Origin: a virus
Strand: one strand, 5' to 3'
IMG/VR virus record: IMGVR_UViG_3300010157_000096
Location: 1 to 49,445 of that record
Length of the DNA stretch: 49,445 nt
Of this stretch, positions 8,588-49,445 are shown one piece after another. The position numbers and the translations under genes were made by a program. Under the pieces are notes generated by a model. That model had not been told where the DNA came from. It made no database searches and saw only the letters and a list, made by a program, of their open reading frames with translations. The stretch's first letter is position 1; the number at the start of each line of letters is the position of its first letter.

Positions 8588-8612
8588 AAAGGGGTCTTCG
8601 GACCCCTTTTTT
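8588..8612 (+). terminator. Intrinsic terminator after gp23 (UUCG tetraloop)
   Basis: AAGGGGTC, loop TTCG, GACCCCTT, then a T run. The stem is GC-rich in a very AT-rich genome. The A run on its left also gives a U tract on the minus strand, so it probably ends the convergent endonuclease gene as well. Confidence 0.92.
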
Positions 8613-10203
8613 ATTTCTTTAATACGAATTTTATCTTTCCGCAGTCATAAATTTTAGGAATTCCAATCCGTTTCATATTTTGAGATTCAGATTCATTTGG
8701 ATCATATTCATTCGGAAAGTGTTTTTCTATTAATTTTTTTCTGAAATTAAATTTGTGAATTCTTTTATTTCCAATAACATATGAATAATCTGGAACTAAT
8801 ATTTTATCCTCAATAAAACCGTTTTTATAGTAAGATTCTCCATCATGCCATCTTAAATCGGCAAAAGTTATTATTTCATCCCAATTATAATTAGATTTAA
8901 AATGTGCTAGTAATTTTGAAAAACCCCCAACAATAGTATATTTTGTCGCATATCTTGTAAGTTCAAATTTATTATTTTTATGATTTATAAATCCCATTAC
9001 TGCAACCAGGGCATCGCTATAATAAAGTCCAAAATTTATCGAACTGTTTCCATTTCCTTGTATATGATAAGAATTAAAAAAATCTATTTTATCTTTACCA
9101 ACATAATCAACTTTACAGTTTCTCGCATATATTTTCATATCATAATTATGTCCTAATATATGAGATATCTTTTTCTTTGTTAGTTCTTTATTATTAACCC
9201 ATTCATCTTCAAATATAGTCAATAACCTAATTCCATTATTTTTACAGATAGTATATTTTTCTTTATGTTGATTTCTTCCTCTATATTTTTCTTGATGCCA
9301 ATATAGTCCACAATACTCTATACCAACTTTTAATTCTTCATTAAATATATCAATCTCAATTCCAAAAATTCTTTCCTTTTTAAATCCATCTTTTAGGGAA
9401 TTACAAAAATTTAATATTTCCGTTTCTGCTTTCGATGTGCTTCCAATCGGATGATAATGAACTCCATATTTTTTTATAAATGTATTTTTTATTTTTTCTT
9501 TTATATCTTCCAATTCAAAGATATGATTAACTCCATATCTTTCAATATTTTTTTCGATAATTTTAGGCAAAACTTTGATTTTTATTGTATTAGAATGATT
9601 TAATTTTTTAATATTATATTCATCAAACCATTTTGATATGGTTACATTAGATACATTAAAAATTTTACCAATATCAACAAGGGTTTTTGTTTTATACAAT
9701 TTAATAAGGGTTTCTTTATCTGGAATTTCTTCTTTTTTATTCTTTACATTAGTTTTTTTTACTTCAATACAAAATTCAACCAATTTTTTTGTTATTGGTA
9801 CTGGAGAGCATCCTAATTCTTGTGCAATCAATTCTTTTGATTTTTTTAAAGTGATTCGTTGCTCATATAACCATTCCTTATCATTAAGAAATTTTTGATA
9901 TGGTTTATCCGAATCTTTATTTGCGCGAGAACACTCAGACCCACAATAATCTGAGAATCCTTTTGCTGGGTAATCTGCTTTATATTTTACAAGATTATTA
10001 CAACATTTACATTTGGGGATTGTATGTACTTCATTGAAAATACAATAATATCTTAAAGATAGAGGAACTATGGTATAAACATTAAGAAAGGAAGTTTCTT
10101 CCATTAAAATGGATTTAAATTTCAATTCATTAGAATTTTTTGATACGGACAATTTTATTGGTTTTATTAAAGTACAAAACTCTACAATTTCTTTTGAATA
10201 CAT
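8611..10203 (-). CDS. Free-standing homing endonuclease, Vsr/EDxHD-like
   Basis: 530 residues on the minus strand, convergent with gp23. Predicted parts: a Cys4 zinc-finger-like segment (CKCCNNLV...DYCGSEC, about residues 64-91); HTH-like repeats (about 125-200) including DIGKIFNVSNVTISKWFDEY; and a nuclease core with SKAETEIL, EIDIFNEELKVGIEYCG, LYWHQEK and IRLLTIFEDEW (about 258-340). This is the pattern of the Vsr/EDxHD group that includes I-Bth0305I-type enzymes. A C-terminal domain of about 170 residues follows. Such enzymes spread by cutting cognate alleles. There is no intron or intein here, so it is a stand-alone insert between gp23 and a tail gene. Confidence 0.8.
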   Translation of the reverse strand: MYSKEIVEFCTLIKPIKLSVSKNSNELKFKSILMEETSFLNVYTIVPLSLRYYCIFNEVHTIPKCKCCNNLVKYKADYPAKGFSDYCGSECSRANKDSDKPYQKFLNDKEWLYEQRITLKKSKELIAQELGCSPVPITKKLVEFCIEVKKTNVKNKKEEIPDKETLIKLYKTKTLVDIGKIFNVSNVTISKWFDEYNIKKLNHSNTIKIKVLPKIIEKNIERYGVNHIFELEDIKEKIKNTFIKKYGVHYHPIGSTSKAETEILNFCNSLKDGFKKERIFGIEIDIFNEELKVGIEYCGLYWHQEKYRGRNQHKEKYTICKNNGIRLLTIFEDEWVNNKELTKKKISHILGHNYDMKIYARNCKVDYVGKDKIDFFNSYHIQGNGNSSINFGLYYSDALVAVMGFINHKNNKFELTRYATKYTIVGGFSKLLAHFKSNYNWDEIITFADLRWHDGESYYKNGFIEDKILVPDYSYVIGNKRIHKFNFRKKLIEKHFPNEYDPNESESQNMKRIGIPKIYDCGKIKFVLKK

Positions 10204-10861: not shown

Positions 10862-11299
10862 ATGGATAAAGTTGAAGATGTCCTAGATCATTGGACAAAA
10901 GACTGTGGTTTTGATGAAACGAATATTCTGGGGGAAATCGCAAGAATCCCCCAAATCCACGCAAAATACCTTAGATTTTTGAATGATCATAAAAAAGAAT
11001 CATTTAAGGCAAAACTAAGATATGATAAGATGAAAGAGATTAGATCTGCATATTATCTTGGACATTTGGACCAAGAATCCCTAGAGACATATGGATGGGA
11101 ACAATTTGATCTTCGCATTTCAAAGTCATCATTAGAAGGATACTTAAATTCAGATAAACTTCTAACAAAATTATTACAAACAAAAACATTTCATGATATT
11201 GCTGTGAGCAATTGCGAACACATTATGGCAGAAATACGAAGTAGAAGTTTTCAAATGAAATCTTATGTTGAATATCAGAAATTCTTGAGTGGGGCATAA
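10862..11299 (+). CDS. uvsY: UvsY recombination mediator
   Basis: 145 residues (T4 UvsY has 137), mostly helical, beginning MDKVEDVLDHWTKDCGFDET. The pattern IPQIHAKYLRFLNDHKKESFKAKLRYDKMK is typical of UvsY. UvsY loads the UvsX recombinase on ssDNA covered by gp32. Its stop is directly overlapped by the uvsW start at 11299, and the partner uvsX lies at 28198. An SD-like GAGG precedes the ATG. Confidence 0.9.
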   Translation: MDKVEDVLDHWTKDCGFDETNILGEIARIPQIHAKYLRFLNDHKKESFKAKLRYDKMKEIRSAYYLGHLDQESLETYGWEQFDLRISKSSLEGYLNSDKLLTKLLQTKTFHDIAVSNCEHIMAEIRSRSFQMKSYVEYQKFLSGA

Positions 11300-12801
11300 T
11301 GGTTGATGTTGTAATTGAAAAATGTAATGAAGCATATCTAAATATTCTAGCAGAACAATCAACTCTCCAAGAATTACAAGATGTTTTTACATTCTTTGCC
11401 GAAGGATATAAGTTTCACCCAAGATATAAAGCAAAGATGTGGGATGGAAAAATTCGCATCTTAAAGATAGTTTCTCGCAACAAAGGAATTATATATTATG
11501 GACTCCTTCAACAAATTATTGATTTTTGTAAGTCAAGAGAATATACATACCAACAAAAAGATATTATTGATAATAATTTAATATCAAATGAAGAACTAGT
11601 TCAATATGTTAAAAAATTAAATCCAAGCAATAAAGGAAGTCCAATAGAACCTAGAGATTATCAAGTAAAAGGGTTTATTGATTCAATAAAGAACAAAAGG
11701 AATGTTTGTCTGTCGGTTACGTCTTCTGGTAAATCTTTTATCATTTATATGATTACTCGTTACCTTCAAGATCAAGGACTTACAGGATTGATCATAACTC
11801 CAAACGTTTCACTTATTCACCAACTATATTCTGATTTTAAAGATTATTCCGAATTAAATCATTGGAATGTTGATGATCATATTCATAAAATTTATTCTGG
11901 ACAAGATAAATATACAAAAAAAAGTATTTGTAAATCAACTTGGCAATCTTTACAGAACATAAAAGATAAATCTTGGTTTGAACATTTTGATTATGTTATC
12001 GTTGACGAGGCGCACGGAGCAAAAGCTACACAATTAACAGCAATTCTTGAAAAATGTACAAACGCTTCGTATAGGTTAGGGTTTACTGGAACTGTTGATA
12101 ATATCAAGTCTAATATTAATACATTAATTGGATTGTTTGGACCCATTAATAGATTGAATACGACAAAAGAATTGATTGACCGAGGACAGGTTGCTAATTT
12201 TAATATAAAATGTTTAATATTAAAATATGATGTTGAAATTTGTAAACTAGTAAAAAAGGCAAAATATCAAGATGAAATAAAATTTCTGGTTGCCAATAAA
12301 AAAAGAAATTCTTTCATAAAAAATTTAGCATTATCTTTAGATAAAAATAGCATCATTCTTTGTAATTTTGTAGAGACTCATGGAAAAGTTATTTTTGAAT
12401 TGATAAAAAATTCAAAACATCTGGGGAACAGAAATGTATATTTTATTCATGGTGGAGTTGAGGGAGAAGAAAGAGAGAGAATTCGTAAAATACTGGAAAC
12501 TGAAAAAAATGCTATTGTTGTAGCATCAAGCGGAACCATGAGTGTTGGAGTTTCTATTAAGAATTTACATAATATTATATTTGCTATTTCTGGAAAATCC
12601 AGAATAAGAACATTACAATCTATAGGAAGAGTTTTAAGATTACATGAAAATAAAGAAATTGCTACACTATATGATATAGTAGATGACCTTTCAATTGGAA
12701 AGCATCAAAACTTTTCTTTAAAACACTTTCTTGAGAGAGTAAAGATGTATAACCAAGAACAATTTGATTATAAATTAAAGAAGATAGATTTTTCTCAATA
12801 A
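11299..12801 (+). CDS. uvsW: UvsW RNA-DNA/recombination helicase
   Basis: 500 residues (T4 UvsW 503). N-terminal domain with FAEGYKFHPRYKAKMWDGKI; superfamily 2 motifs follow: Q-like PRDYQ, motif I SVTSSGKS (about 140-147), motif II DEAH (about 236-239), motif III GFTGT, and motif VI IQSIGRVLR in the C-terminal RecA-like domain. UvsW unwinds R-loops and branched intermediates and helps switch T4 from origin- to recombination-dependent replication. It overlaps uvsY by one base. SGKS replaces the more usual GKT/GKS context, which is still a valid Walker A. Confidence 0.94.
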   Translation: MVDVVIEKCNEAYLNILAEQSTLQELQDVFTFFAEGYKFHPRYKAKMWDGKIRILKIVSRNKGIIYYGLLQQIIDFCKSREYTYQQKDIIDNNLISNEELVQYVKKLNPSNKGSPIEPRDYQVKGFIDSIKNKRNVCLSVTSSGKSFIIYMITRYLQDQGLTGLIITPNVSLIHQLYSDFKDYSELNHWNVDDHIHKIYSGQDKYTKKSICKSTWQSLQNIKDKSWFEHFDYVIVDEAHGAKATQLTAILEKCTNASYRLGFTGTVDNIKSNINTLIGLFGPINRLNTTKELIDRGQVANFNIKCLILKYDVEICKLVKKAKYQDEIKFLVANKKRNSFIKNLALSLDKNSIILCNFVETHGKVIFELIKNSKHLGNRNVYFIHGGVEGEERERIRKILETEKNAIVVASSGTMSVGVSIKNLHNIIFAISGKSRIRTLQSIGRVLRLHENKEIATLYDIVDDLSIGKHQNFSLKHFLERVKMYNQEQFDYKLKKIDFSQ

Positions 12802-12827: not shown

Positions 12828-13205
12828 GTGAAAATTATGTCAGGATATATTAATGTGATACGGTTTAAGACTGGAGAAGATGTCATCTCTTTTACGGAAG
12901 AAAGTGAGGACTCAATTAAATTGGTCCATCCATTAAGCATTTATATAACTTTCAACACAAGCACAGAAGAGCAAGAATTGGTTTTAAGTTTTTGGTTGCC
13001 AGTTAATCTTCTAAAAACAAACTCAGCAGACATTCCAAGATCAGAAATACTGTTAATTCTTGAACCAAGACAAGAATTTAAAGAATATTATTTGAATTTC
13101 CTTAATACTTACAATATTGAAACTAAATCAAATAAGAAAGATAAAGAGAAGATAAAAGCAATGCTTGAAAGTCTTGATGCTAAAGTACTGAAACAAATAC
13201 ACTAG
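12828..13205 (+). CDS. Hypothetical protein, 'TGEDV' family (paralogue 1)
   Basis: Start GTG/ATG choice: the frame opens at 12828, but ATG 12837 (AAAATTATGTCAGG) gives MSGYINVIRFKTGEDVISFT and fits the family. Small, mainly beta protein; the same pattern (TGEDV, then a Pro-containing strand, an EP motif and F..Y..F at the end) recurs in the product at 24725, so the two are paralogues. Proteins with a KLxTGEDVxA start are common in T4-like phages of aquatic bacteria, and a Sm/Hfq-like beta barrel is possible but unproven. Placed between uvsW and the gp55 promoter. Confidence 0.65.
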   Translation: MKIMSGYINVIRFKTGEDVISFTEESEDSIKLVHPLSIYITFNTSTEEQELVLSFWLPVNLLKTNSADIPRSEILLILEPRQEFKEYYLNFLNTYNIETKSNKKDKEKIKAMLESLDAKVLKQIH

Positions 13206-13263
13206 ATATATTTGATAAGGTATCATCAACCCAGAACATAGTTATTATCACATTAAAAAAAAC

Positions 13264-13314
13264 AAAAGTCAAGCCTTTTATTGATTTGACTTTTAGTGTA
13301 TTGTAAAGTATAAT
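13264..13314 (+). promoter_or_regulatory. Composite terminator-like hairpin and sigma70 promoter upstream of gene 55
   Basis: A perfect 9-base inverted repeat (AAAAGTCAA at 13264-13272, TTGACTTTT at 13286-13294, 13-base loop) can form a hairpin followed by a short T run. Its right arm contains the -35 element TTGACT (13286-13291), then a 17-base spacer and a perfect -10 TATAAT (13309-13314). The same module occurs at 48980-49030. Confidence 0.8.
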
Positions 13315-13344: not shown

Positions 13345-13908
13345 ATGGATAACCAACAAAATCCTGTTGATAATAGAAAGAAACAACAATACATTAATAA
13401 TGAAGACTTTTTGAATGCTCTTATTAAATATAAATCGGAAGTTCTTTCCGCAAAAGACGAAGAGTCAAAAAAACCAAAGATTCCAGAATACATTGGTCTA
13501 TGTTTTATGAAGATTGCCAATAATTTGGCAAAGCGACCTAATTTCTGTCAATATACTTACAAAGACGAAATGATATCCGATGCAATAGAAAATTGTCTAA
13601 TGTATTTTGAAAACTTTGATCCAGAAAAATCCTCCAATCCATTCGCATATTTTACTCAAATTTGTTGGTATGCCTTTATTCGTCGCATTGCCAAAGAAAA
13701 GAAACAACAATATGTCAAATATAAAGCAACCGAACAATTTGGAACTCTTGATGAAGAAGAGATGCGAGAATTGGGAGATGGTTCGGTTCAACAAATCCAA
13801 ATTTACGAAAATTTATATGAGTTTATTGCTCAATATGAAAATAGTGTTAAGGAGAAGAAAGAAAACCTAAAACGAAAAAAAGGAATTGAGAATTTCCTAG
13901 AGGAATAA
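13345..13908 (+). CDS. 55: Late-transcription sigma factor gp55
   Basis: 187 residues (T4 gp55 185). It contains PEYIGLCFMKIANNLAKRPNFCQYTYKDEMISDAIENCLMYF-type residues, corresponding to sigma region 2 core-binding helices, and NPFAYFTQICWYAFIRRIAKEKKQ, the region 2.4-like helix that reads the TATAAATA box. With the gp45 clamp (20306) it directs host RNA polymerase to late promoters, of which this window has many. The strong sigma70 promoter just upstream fits early/middle expression. Confidence 0.94.
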   Translation: MDNQQNPVDNRKKQQYINNEDFLNALIKYKSEVLSAKDEESKKPKIPEYIGLCFMKIANNLAKRPNFCQYTYKDEMISDAIENCLMYFENFDPEKSSNPFAYFTQICWYAFIRRIAKEKKQQYVKYKATEQFGTLDEEEMRELGDGSVQQIQIYENLYEFIAQYENSVKEKKENLKRKKGIENFLEE

Positions 13909-23472: not shown

Positions 23473-23530
23473 AATATAATTGTTGGTCAAAATAATTATA
23501 TATATTCTGCCAAAATTGGGGAATCCCCCC

Positions 23531-23559
23531 TTGACTTATATTTCAAATTATATTATAAT
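23531..23559 (+). promoter_or_regulatory. Sigma70-type early promoter
   Basis: TTGACT (23531-23536), 17-base spacer, TATAAT (23554-23559). A short GGGGAATCCCC hairpin lies just upstream. It drives the genes from 23590 toward gene 43. Confidence 0.8.
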
Positions 23560-25023: not shown

Positions 25024-27162
25024 ATGAGTGATTTTTATTTAAATGCCAAGCAATATGGGGATAATATTCTCTATACTGGTATTAAAAATGGAAAGAAAAT
25101 TAGACAAAAAGTTCCATTCAAACCTTCATTATTTGTTCCAACAAATGAAGAATCTCCATACAAAACTCTGTATGGAGATCCCCTAAAAAAACTGAAGTTT
25201 GAATCTATCAAAAAAGCAAAAGAATTTGTCTCTCAATTTGAAAGTGTTGGAAACTTTCATGTTTATGGTAATACTCAATATGAATATTGCTTGATTTCTG
25301 ATATGTTCCAAACAGATATTGAATGGGATTATAATAAAATAAGAATTGCTATTTTTGATATTGAAGTAAATTCAGATCCAGAAACCGGAGGATTTGCTTC
25401 TGCTCAAGATACATTCCAACCAATAACATCTATTGCGCTAAAGTTTGTTGGTGAAGAAAAATATTATCTTTTTGGGTATCATGATTTTGATTGTCCCGAT
25501 AATGTTTATTATATCAAATGTCAAGATGAATGGACTCTTTTAAAGAAGTTTATTGAAATTTGGTCTTTGGAATATCCAGATATTATGTCTGGATGGAATT
25601 CTTCTGGGTTTGATATTCCATATCTTATCAATCGTTGCTATAGAATTATTGGTGAGAAAGAAACTAGGAAATTGTCTCCGTGGAATATTATCCATGATAG
25701 AAGAACAAAGAAATTTAATCCTAAATTTAATCAGTATGAGGACGAAGTTTCTTATTCAGTTCTTGGTATATCTTCTCTTGATTATCTTGATCTCTATAAA
25801 AGATATCAACCAGGAGGTACATCCCAAGAATCTTACAAACTAGACTTCATTGCCGAAGAAGAACTTGGCGAAAATAAAGTTGATTATGATGGTTCTCTCC
25901 ATAAATTTTATACTGAAGATAAGCAAAAATTTTATGAATATAACGTAAAAGACGTTTATCTGGTTGAAAAGTTGAATGAAAAGTGTAAGTTGTTTGAACT
26001 TTGTTTAACCTTGGCATACGATTCAAAAACAAATTATGAAGATGTGTTTAAGCAGACCAGAATGTGGGATTCTTTAATTTATGATTATTTGAGACAAAAG
26101 AATATTCAAATTCCACAAAAAGAAGATCGTGAGGATGTTGAATATGCTGGTGCTTATGTAAAACATCCTATTACTGGAATGCAGAGGTGGGTTGCTACTC
26201 TTGATGCGACTTCTCTATATCCTTCAATCATTATGACAAAGAACATTAGTATTGAGACTTTGGTTAGTCCAGAAGATTATACTGATGACATGAGAAGAAT
26301 TCTTTCTAGTGGAGTTTCTGTAGATAAATTATTATCAAAATCTGTGGATCTTTCAAAGTTGAAAGATAATAATGTAACATTGACTCCAAATGGACAATTC
26401 TTTAGGACTGATAAAAAAGGATTTCTTCCAGAAATGGTTGAAACAATGTTTAAGGCTAGACAAGATTATAAAAAGAAGATGTTGTCTGCTCAAAAAGAGT
26501 ATGAAGTAGTATCGGCAGAATTGAAGAAGAATAATTCTCCAGAATTGAAAAGAAGATTGAGTAAGTTACAATATGATATTTCAAAATTTAATAATCTTCA
26601 AAATTCAAAGAAATTATGTTTGAACTCTCTTTATGGGGCAACTGGTAATAAATATTTTAGATTTTTTGATGTTAAATTAGCAGAAGCAATTACATTGGAG
26701 GGACAACTATCCAATCGTTGGGTTGAAACTGGCATGAATAAGTATTTGAATTCTGTATTAAAAACAAAATCCGATTATGTTATCTATATGGATACGGATA
26801 GTTGTTTTGGAGATAGTATAATATATGTTAATGGTGAAAAAGTAAAAATTGAAGATTATTTTGACCTTGTAGCACAAAAGACAGATTCTTTATATTTTGA
26901 TGAGTTTAATCAAAATTTTGCTTATCCTTCTAATGATACGACATTAAGTGTTTCTACAACTAGCAAACTCGTTGAAGAAAAGCAGATAAAATATGTTATG
27001 AAACATAAGGTTAAAAAGAGAATGTTTAAAATTAAAATTGATAATAAAGAAGTTATTGTTACTGAAGACCATTCAATTATGATTGAAAGAAATGGTAGAA
27101 TTATGTCAGCAACTCCAGAAAATATTAAAACTTCTGATAAACTTTTATATCTAGACTCTTAA
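25024..27162 (+). CDS. 43: DNA polymerase gp43, N-terminal part fused to split-intein half IntN
   Basis: 712 residues: 593 of polymerase, then a 119-residue IntN. Family B motifs: Exo I FDIEVNS (near residue 112), motif A DATSLYPSII (near 395), motif B KKLCLNSLYGATGN (near 535) and motif C YMDTDS, the last extein residues (588-593). Cys1 of the intein follows (CFGDSIIYVNGEKV) and block B VTEDHSIMI. Translation stops at TAA 27160-27162, after the IntN. The remaining polymerase (269 residues) is in the next ORF. Joined exteins make 862 residues, near T4 gp43 (898), and restore YMDTDS-SLAISFEKL. An active enzyme should therefore require trans-splicing. Confidence 0.93.
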   Translation: MSDFYLNAKQYGDNILYTGIKNGKKIRQKVPFKPSLFVPTNEESPYKTLYGDPLKKLKFESIKKAKEFVSQFESVGNFHVYGNTQYEYCLISDMFQTDIEWDYNKIRIAIFDIEVNSDPETGGFASAQDTFQPITSIALKFVGEEKYYLFGYHDFDCPDNVYYIKCQDEWTLLKKFIEIWSLEYPDIMSGWNSSGFDIPYLINRCYRIIGEKETRKLSPWNIIHDRRTKKFNPKFNQYEDEVSYSVLGISSLDYLDLYKRYQPGGTSQESYKLDFIAEEELGENKVDYDGSLHKFYTEDKQKFYEYNVKDVYLVEKLNEKCKLFELCLTLAYDSKTNYEDVFKQTRMWDSLIYDYLRQKNIQIPQKEDREDVEYAGAYVKHPITGMQRWVATLDATSLYPSIIMTKNISIETLVSPEDYTDDMRRILSSGVSVDKLLSKSVDLSKLKDNNVTLTPNGQFFRTDKKGFLPEMVETMFKARQDYKKKMLSAQKEYEVVSAELKKNNSPELKRRLSKLQYDISKFNNLQNSKKLCLNSLYGATGNKYFRFFDVKLAEAITLEGQLSNRWVETGMNKYLNSVLKTKSDYVIYMDTDSCFGDSIIYVNGEKVKIEDYFDLVAQKTDSLYFDEFNQNFAYPSNDTTLSVSTTSKLVEEKQIKYVMKHKVKKRMFKIKIDNKEVIVTEDHSIMIERNGRIMSATPENIKTSDKLLYLDS

Positions 27163-48381: not shown

Positions 48382-48924
48382 ATGGTAAAAGAAGAAACCA
48401 AAATGTCCTGTTTAGATTTCAAATCAAAATTAAAAGTTTTTAGTCTGGGAATTGTTCTTGGGTGTATTGGCGGTCTTTTCTGGCAAGAATATTTTACCCC
48501 AATAAACCTTTCATCAAATATGGATAATCATGAAGAACTTGCTATTCTTCATACCGAAAGTAATGAAAAGTTATTAAAATATATAGAAGGAAAGTGGAGA
48601 TCATCAATCGGAGATTTAATAATCAATATTGATGATGCTGATTTAGATGGAAGTTTCTTAGTTATTGAGAGTGTAGCAGGAAATTTAAAAAGACAAGAAA
48701 TTTATAAAATTGCAGCAATTGATAAAATCAATGGTCTATTAGGAATCATAAAACTCAAGGTTTGTGATCCAAAGCAAGGGTGTGAAGAAAATCAACAAAT
48801 CCCAATTCAAATCAATAAAATCTTCGGAACAACAAAAACAATAACAATGACATTTGATACTAGATTCGCATATTGTATGCCTATTGAGAACTTATGTACA
48901 AGAGCATTCAAAGAAATAGATTAA
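48382..48924 (+). CDS. Signal-anchored protein, possibly periplasmic (lysis/inhibition candidate)
   Basis: 180 residues. Hydrophobic segment VFSLGIVLGCIGGLFWQEYF (about 19-38) after a positively charged start; the rest is soluble with beta-rich middle and four Cys (VCDPKQGCEE; YCMPIENLC) that may form disulfides in the periplasm. Alternative start at ATG 48403. Function unknown; neighbours suggest lysis or superinfection roles. Confidence 0.6.
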   Translation: MVKEETKMSCLDFKSKLKVFSLGIVLGCIGGLFWQEYFTPINLSSNMDNHEELAILHTESNEKLLKYIEGKWRSSIGDLIINIDDADLDGSFLVIESVAGNLKRQEIYKIAAIDKINGLLGIIKLKVCDPKQGCEENQQIPIQINKIFGTTKTITMTFDTRFAYCMPIENLCTRAFKEID

Positions 48925-48979
48925 TTATTTAGAAACAAACTATCAACCGACCACATAGATAGTATATAATAAAAATCCA

Positions 48980-49030
48980 AAAAGTCAAGCTATTTTTTAG
49001 TTTGACTTTTTTATTATGTTAAGGTATTAT
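48980..49030 (+). promoter_or_regulatory. Composite terminator-like hairpin and sigma70 promoter upstream of primase
   Basis: AAAAGTCAA (48980-48988) and TTGACTTTT (49002-49010), 13-base loop; -35 TTGACT (49002-49007), 17-base spacer, -10 TATTAT (49025-49030). Arms and loop length are identical to the module at 13264. Confidence 0.78.
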
Positions 49031-49065: not shown

Positions 49066-49445
49066 ATGTCATTTTATATTGATACGAAATATTTAAAGAT
49101 TATTTCTCCCCGTTTGGAAGGATTTATTCAGAAATCTTCTGATTTGTGGAATTGTAGATGTCCTTTCTGTGGGGATTCTCAGAAGAAGAAGACTAAAAAG
49201 AGGGGGTTTCTCTATAAAAAAGGAAATGATCTTTTCTATAAGTGTTTCAATGATGATGGTTGTAGTACAACTTTTTATAATTTTATTCAAAGATTAGATT
49301 CCACTCTTGCCAAAGAATATGCGTTTGAACGTTTTTTTAATGGGGAAACTAAACAACACAATTATAAAAAACCAGAGTTCACATTTAAGAAACCTGTTTT
49401 TAAGAAAAAGACTGAACTAAATATTCCTACCATTGCTTCATTGGT
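49066..49445 (+). CDS. 61: DNA primase gp61, N-terminal part (3' end outside window)
   Basis: 126 residues visible. Zinc-ribbon NCRCPFCGDSQKKK (Cys32/34/37 region) with CFNDDGC as the second half, matching the gp61/DnaG-type zinc domain: MSFYIDTKYLKIISPRLEGF start. Works with gp41 (30723). Preceded by a strong early promoter. Catalytic TOPRIM-like part is beyond the window. Confidence 0.88.
   Translation, partial: MSFYIDTKYLKIISPRLEGFIQKSSDLWNCRCPFCGDSQKKKTKKRGFLYKKGNDLFYKCFNDDGCSTTFYNFIQRLDSTLAKEYAFERFFNGETKQHNYKKPEFTFKKPVFKKKTELNIPTIASL

Follow-up and report, generated by a model that had tools for sequence, protein, structure and literature searches.

Inverted repeats ahead of gp55 and a primase gene in a T4-like phage fragment as candidate back-to-back early promoters

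Genes, repeats and promoters in the window

The window (the whole stretch of DNA analysed, 49,445 bases with a GC content of 30.7%) is a fragment of a T4-like myovirus. The genes for a UvsW-type helicase (11299..12801, + strand; PHROG 16, E=8e-102) and for a small conserved protein (12828..13205, +), both in synteny with cyanophages, precede gp55 (13345..13908, +; PHROG 234, E=1e-60), which encodes the late-transcription sigma factor; the cyanophage counterpart of the small gene is annotated as 'methylamine utilization' or Sm-like. A DNA polymerase gene lies at 25024-27162 and, at the far end, a gene without known family (48382..48924, +) is followed by the N-terminal part of a gp61-type DNA primase gene (49066..49443, +; PHROG 47, E=9e-18) that is cut by the contig end. 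The sole long minus-strand gene (8611-10203, -) has matches in homing/HNH endonuclease families, and a promoter of its own (TTGACA-17-TATACT, 10278-10250, -). An Rfam search of the whole window matched zero families. The genome of this phage is incomplete, and the search for copies covered the 49,445-base record and its relatives; because these records are fragments, copy numbers are lower bounds.

The inverted repeat AAAAGTCAA-13-TTGACTTTT lies ahead of gp55 (copy 1, 13264-13294) and again ahead of the primase gene (copy 2, 48980-49010), with a loop of 13 nt both times, and a direct reading of the sequence agrees exactly with the pattern given in the preliminary description. Those two occurrences compare with none in 100 dinucleotide shuffles, and a third copy is absent from the 49,445-base record. 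Copy 1 has a predicted folding energy of -9.0 kcal/mol and is followed by a weak tract (TTTTAGTG). The stem of copy 2 goes past the 9-base arms, a feature absent from the preliminary description, to form 14 pairs around a 5-nt loop (48979..49011, -15.4 kcal/mol), with a good T-rich tail (TTTTTTAT, T6) behind it. Both stems hold few G-C pairs. When the two intergenic regions were aligned, the score was 87 versus a maximum of 69 among 1000 shuffles, much of it supplied by the hairpin; the part upstream of the hairpin alone scored 38, a value equalled in 11 of 5000 shuffles.

In agreement with the earlier claim, the right arm of each copy is a near-consensus early-type -35 box placed just before gp55 and the gp61-type primase gene, respectively. 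The gp55 promoter (TTGACT-17-TATAAT, 13286..13314, +; predicted start ~13321) matches the consensus at 11/12 positions, which makes it joint best among 106 promoter-like sites in the first 20 kb, and that of the primase gene (TTGACT-17-TATTAT, 49002..49030, +; predicted start ~49037) at 10/12; the predicted starts fall ~24 and ~29 nt ahead of the respective start codons. An A-rich UP-like stretch at about -40 to -44 is absent at copy 1, where T-rich loop sequence is found. The left arms, and this had been missed, are also -35 boxes in both copies, belonging to leftward promoters at 13244..13272 (-; TTGACT-17-GATAAT, predicted start ~13238) and 48961..48988 (-; TTGACT-16-TATACT). Both match at 10/12 and point antisense to the genes upstream, and they may be weak because copy 1 has GATAAT as its -10 and copy 2 a 16-bp spacer. 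Past the leftward -10 the two copies have a conserved leader in common, TATGTnnnnGGTTGA, which reads AACTATGTTCTGGGTTGATGA / AACTATGTTCTGGGTTGATG in copy 1 (13223..13243, -) and ATCTATGTGGTCGGTTGATAG in copy 2 (48938..48960, -).

In both directions and in both copies, these elements have the make-up of T4-like early promoters (TTGAC or TTTAC, a spacer of 16-18 bp and a TATAAT-like -10). By sequence, promoters occupy both strands of one short segment, as in bidirectional promoters; a single pseudo-symmetrical element used both ways is not what is found at these sites, since there are two separate -10s and the -35 boxes stand 13 bp apart. As both promoters share the extended -35 box TTGACTTTT, face away from each other and leave 13 bp between, an inverted repeat results. 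Each copy is therefore probably a back-to-back pair of host-sigma70-type early promoters, and the hairpin would be two inverted -35 boxes.

Distribution of the leftward promoter and its leader

The gp55 region was compared across 80 environmental gp55 loci and 15 cultured Kyanoviridae. The leftward promoter with its leader precedes gp55 in all 15 isolates and in nearly all environmental relatives examined, running antisense to the small upstream gene and uvsW. Its spacer is constant at 17 bp in the environmental gp55 loci examined, six of which (L022, L030, L050, L059, L074 and L078) have the full 12/12 consensus, and the leader reads kTGTnCCnGTTTGA in environmental loci and AACnnTGTnnGGGTTnA in cyanophages. 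Leftward scores in the isolates, to which a 17-bp spacer adds 0.5, range from 10.5 to 12.5 (shuffle p 0.000-0.020). The rightward promoter is also present in the isolates (p <= 0.045 in 14 of them; p = 0.105 in ACG-2014f), and its -35 box is offset from the leftward one by -10, -1, or +7 to +22, so that the two promoters are conserved and the hairpin register is not. Many distant environmental phages have the leftward promoter alone at gp55, and the primase copy, together with its leftward partner, was found only in the close clade of the window (L205-L208).

A gene of ~196-200 aa (MNEYVKTFQKQKYTLVKNFIPKDTA...) is inserted ahead of gp55, between it and the small uvsW-side gene, in L024, L037, L039 and L040; despite this insertion, the leftward element remains beside the small upstream gene in L024 and L040. 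Many distant leftward promoters (many of L013-L082, L430 and L431) have a second TTGAC inside the spacer, 11-12 bp past the first and often with a weaker -10, which may represent an activator site or a backup -35. The tandem TGTCAA repeats of distant relatives were also considered as Pho boxes, a reading that was dropped as no suitably placed -10 was seen by eye.

The same unit is found at other loci with coding sequence in its leftward direction, whose genes (at L286, L288, L296, L366, L406, L128 and L289) were named by eye from their sequences, without family searches. The promoter and leader lie between divergent genes at L288, and at L296 they separate a gene of ~700 aa with a HECGH-type motif from a cobS-like AAA gene, into which the leftward unit reads; L128 and L289 have an L296-like junction with a 154-aa gene first. 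A small membrane-protein gene follows the unit at L366 and L406, and a MazG-type gene at L286, which is in a 168-kb record. Leftward promoter and leader run into a MazG-type gene at L285, L286, L290, L293 and L294, and at L285 an open frame begins within the leader (ATGTGGATGGTTGATG), which could point to a leaderless start.

A profile built from the window and 14 of the 15 cyanophage gp55 sites detected 1-2 extra copies in most genomes of cultured cyanophages, in sense and just before small genes. Environmental B-type records each contained one clear copy. In S-RIM12 (L515, position 13834) the sense copy is 5 bp ahead of CpeT. Small cyanophage genes, CpeT included, are preceded by a sense promoter with a AACnnTGTnnGGGTTCA leader at L515, L516, L517, L521, L523 and L524. 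Because sense copies stand ahead of other genes, the unit appears to be a promoter class that is not peculiar to gp55.

Pairing of the arms and alternative readings

Among 15 elements of the window's clade, 126 of the 135 arm positions are paired, versus a mean of 120.9 when right arms are dealt among elements, a mildly positive result (the observed pairing was reached in 77 of 5000 shuffles), and the two inner pairs show no pairing excess in these elements (17 vs 17.0). The main covariation is from TTGAC/GTCAA to TTTAC/GTAAA. At intergenic promoter-like sites, counted with alternative spacers and with the hairpin elements themselves included, the ratio TTGAC:TTTAC is 8:1 in the window and 8:1 in G005 versus 5:13 in G003 and 5:11 in G004, so the arms change together because those phages switch their -35 box genome-wide. 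It has been described that T4-like early promoters vary between phages at this same -35 base (PMC1524935). RNA compensatory evolution was accordingly rejected as the origin of the covariation, given the genome-wide switch and the inner pairs without excess.

Stem and promoters can also be separated. The stem is broken and both promoters are kept in L004 and L010, and the stem is kept and the U-tract lost in L128 and L289. Less in keeping with a plain promoter pair, TTkACTT promoters of the window's clade lie at a hairpin in 17 of 35 cases, with divergent pairs counted on both strands, versus 43 of 600 random intergenic points; stems and T-tracts longer than two -35 boxes require are found in copy 2, L005 and L206. 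Judged from the sequence comparison as a whole, the hairpin is dispensable, and the common -35 box, not selection on the hairpin, accounts for the pairing of its arms.

The preliminary description proposed that one sequence stops upstream transcription and starts the next early unit. Taken to its full extent, this would be a dedicated terminator-promoter fusion, in which the hairpin ends the upstream mRNA, the right arm is reused as the -35 and the left arm exists to pair. We consider this rather doubtful as an account of the window sites. The rightward -35 does lie in the arm and copy 2 has terminator features, so that it could be a fair intrinsic terminator by its folding energy and T6, and at least 5 T are present within the 8 bases after the CTT start of the arm in 13 of the 15 clade elements. 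Copy 1 is weaker on both counts and L004, L010 and L008 pair poorly; the left arm, moreover, is the -35 of a separate predicted promoter, complete with -10 and conserved leader. L288 and L296 have the same hairpin between divergent genes, where there is no upstream transcript to stop, and cultured cyanophages keep the two promoters without the hairpin register. The term 'insulated', applied earlier to this switch, is doubtful too, because the predicted leftward promoter would send RNA back across the upstream genes. The site would mainly be a divergent promoter, which may also be a modest terminator.

Fusions of the proposed kind are better represented elsewhere. In the window, a short GGGG-AAT-CCCC hairpin (-6.9 kcal/mol) abuts TTGACT-17-TATAAT at 23518..23559 (+), and the orthologous sites in G002 (41129, -18.8 kcal/mol), G003 (49683, -19.1 kcal/mol) and G004 (45574, -15.2 kcal/mol) have strong GC-rich hairpins that follow an hsp20-like gene and continue with their right arm into the -35 TTTACT; no good leftward promoter was found at these three junctions (7-8/12). 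The gene downstream of the hsp20-junction hairpins encodes 65-73 aa, and this is a cleaner terminator-promoter fusion than the reported site. In viral contigs, at least 113 distinct AAAAGTCAA...TTGACTTTT hairpins are among the matches listed, and 66 of their 222 arms have a -10 at a distance of exactly 17 bp versus 0-13 at each other spacing. In at least 60 of the listed hairpins a single arm has a promoter; these lie mostly between co-directional genes, usually within ~20 nt of the upstream stop, which favours the fusion. At least 10 listed hairpins have two promoter arms, mostly between divergent genes (6), whereas the window copies, unusually, combine two such arms with co-directional flanking genes. 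At L115, L096, L091, L092 and L117, among others, a strong hairpin such as AAAAGTCAAGAGG..CCTCTTGACTTTTTT comes shortly behind a stop codon; its right arm is the -35, and TATAAT follows at a spacing of 17 bp, as in a fused terminator-promoter. Among the matches listed, promoters embedded in such hairpins amount to 2 of 124 for TTGACTTTT-17-TATAAT, which tells against the fusion, and 1 of 138 for TTTACTTTT; the hairpin as a common viral promoter design was rejected on these counts. The terminator/-35 fusion imagined in the preliminary description thus exists in the sequences of some phages, but it is uncommon.

The leftward signal at gp55 could instead be a relic no longer in use, or a DNA element that acts in some other process (e.g., in replication or recombination), since a leftward protein-coding gene at gp55 was found in none of the isolates and there is no conserved leftward reading frame. 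We consider this improbable, as very diverged phages have retained the spacer length, the two hexamers and the leader, and elsewhere the unit leads into genes. Finally, the repeat could be an operator that governs both promoters through a dimeric protein, of phage or host, bound to AAAAGTCAA/TTGACTTTT, with half-sites about two helical turns from each other. This would suit the perfect 9-bp dyad and the 22-bp centre-to-centre spacing of both window copies, but is very unlikely given the gap of 11 to 16 nt between -35 hexamers among relatives, the free register in cyanophages and the TTGACTTTT or TTTACTTTT boxes that stand alone with a -10 at other promoters.

Possible function and known systems

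Under the promoter-pair reading, the rightward promoter would serve gp55 or the primase gene, and the leftward one, which at gp55 is conserved more widely than its partner, would start an RNA with the conserved leader. This RNA would be antisense to the upstream genes at the window sites and would enter real genes elsewhere or in other phages. We infer that host polymerase would fire both promoters early and that polymerase on one of them could hinder the other; in cyanophages, where the sites overlap, only one might be occupied at a time. Antisense transcription could damp the upstream genes at early times and might in this way delay UvsW, and the hairpin in read-through RNA, mainly that of copy 2, might stop some upstream transcription. 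As gp55 switches T4-like phages to late transcription, we suggest, tentatively and as something that may well prove otherwise, that cyanophages and their relatives share an antisense early RNA that begins just ahead of gp55 and covers uvsW and the small gene; its promoter would be interlocked with that of gp55, leaving polymerase one direction at a time, as an early/late timing device.

Early and middle control in cyanophages has been described as unclear (PMC2984593), and the promoter pair at gp55, one member of it antisense, offers an exact and testable start site in the 15 of 15 cultured Kyanoviridae checked. Furthermore, a hairpin with covarying arms can come from two inverted -35 boxes, which is a trap for sequence-based terminator calling.

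T4 early promoters, used by host sigma70, have the -35 sequence GTTTAC, with G preferred at that base in RB49, RB43 and Aeh1 (PMC1524935). The window promoters resemble them in the -35 TTKAC with the same T/G alternation, the 17-bp spacer, the TATAAT-like -10 and the position ahead of regulatory and replication genes, and differ in being paired back to back, with -35s that form an inverted repeat and one member having a conserved initial transcribed sequence. As in bacterial bidirectional promoters (PMC12825309, PMC10268837), a short segment is predicted to start transcription both ways, and the polymerase sites overlap in cyanophages; those promoters, however, are a pseudo-symmetrical sequence engaged in two orientations, whereas the window has two separate -35/-10 pairs with the -35s inward. 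In Kayvirus, the early promoter p98 directly follows the terminator t97 (PMC7698491), and a terminator-like hairpin similarly abuts the next promoter in the window, but here the -35 lies within the stem, whose other arm likewise supplies a -35. Finally, the CfrI antisense RNA of S-PM2 (PMC2984593) is likewise a case of antisense transcription in a T4-like cyanophage, that of the window being only predicted; CfrI belongs to the psbA/homing endonuclease locus, whereas the gp55 antisense unit lies at a different locus and is conserved across the family.
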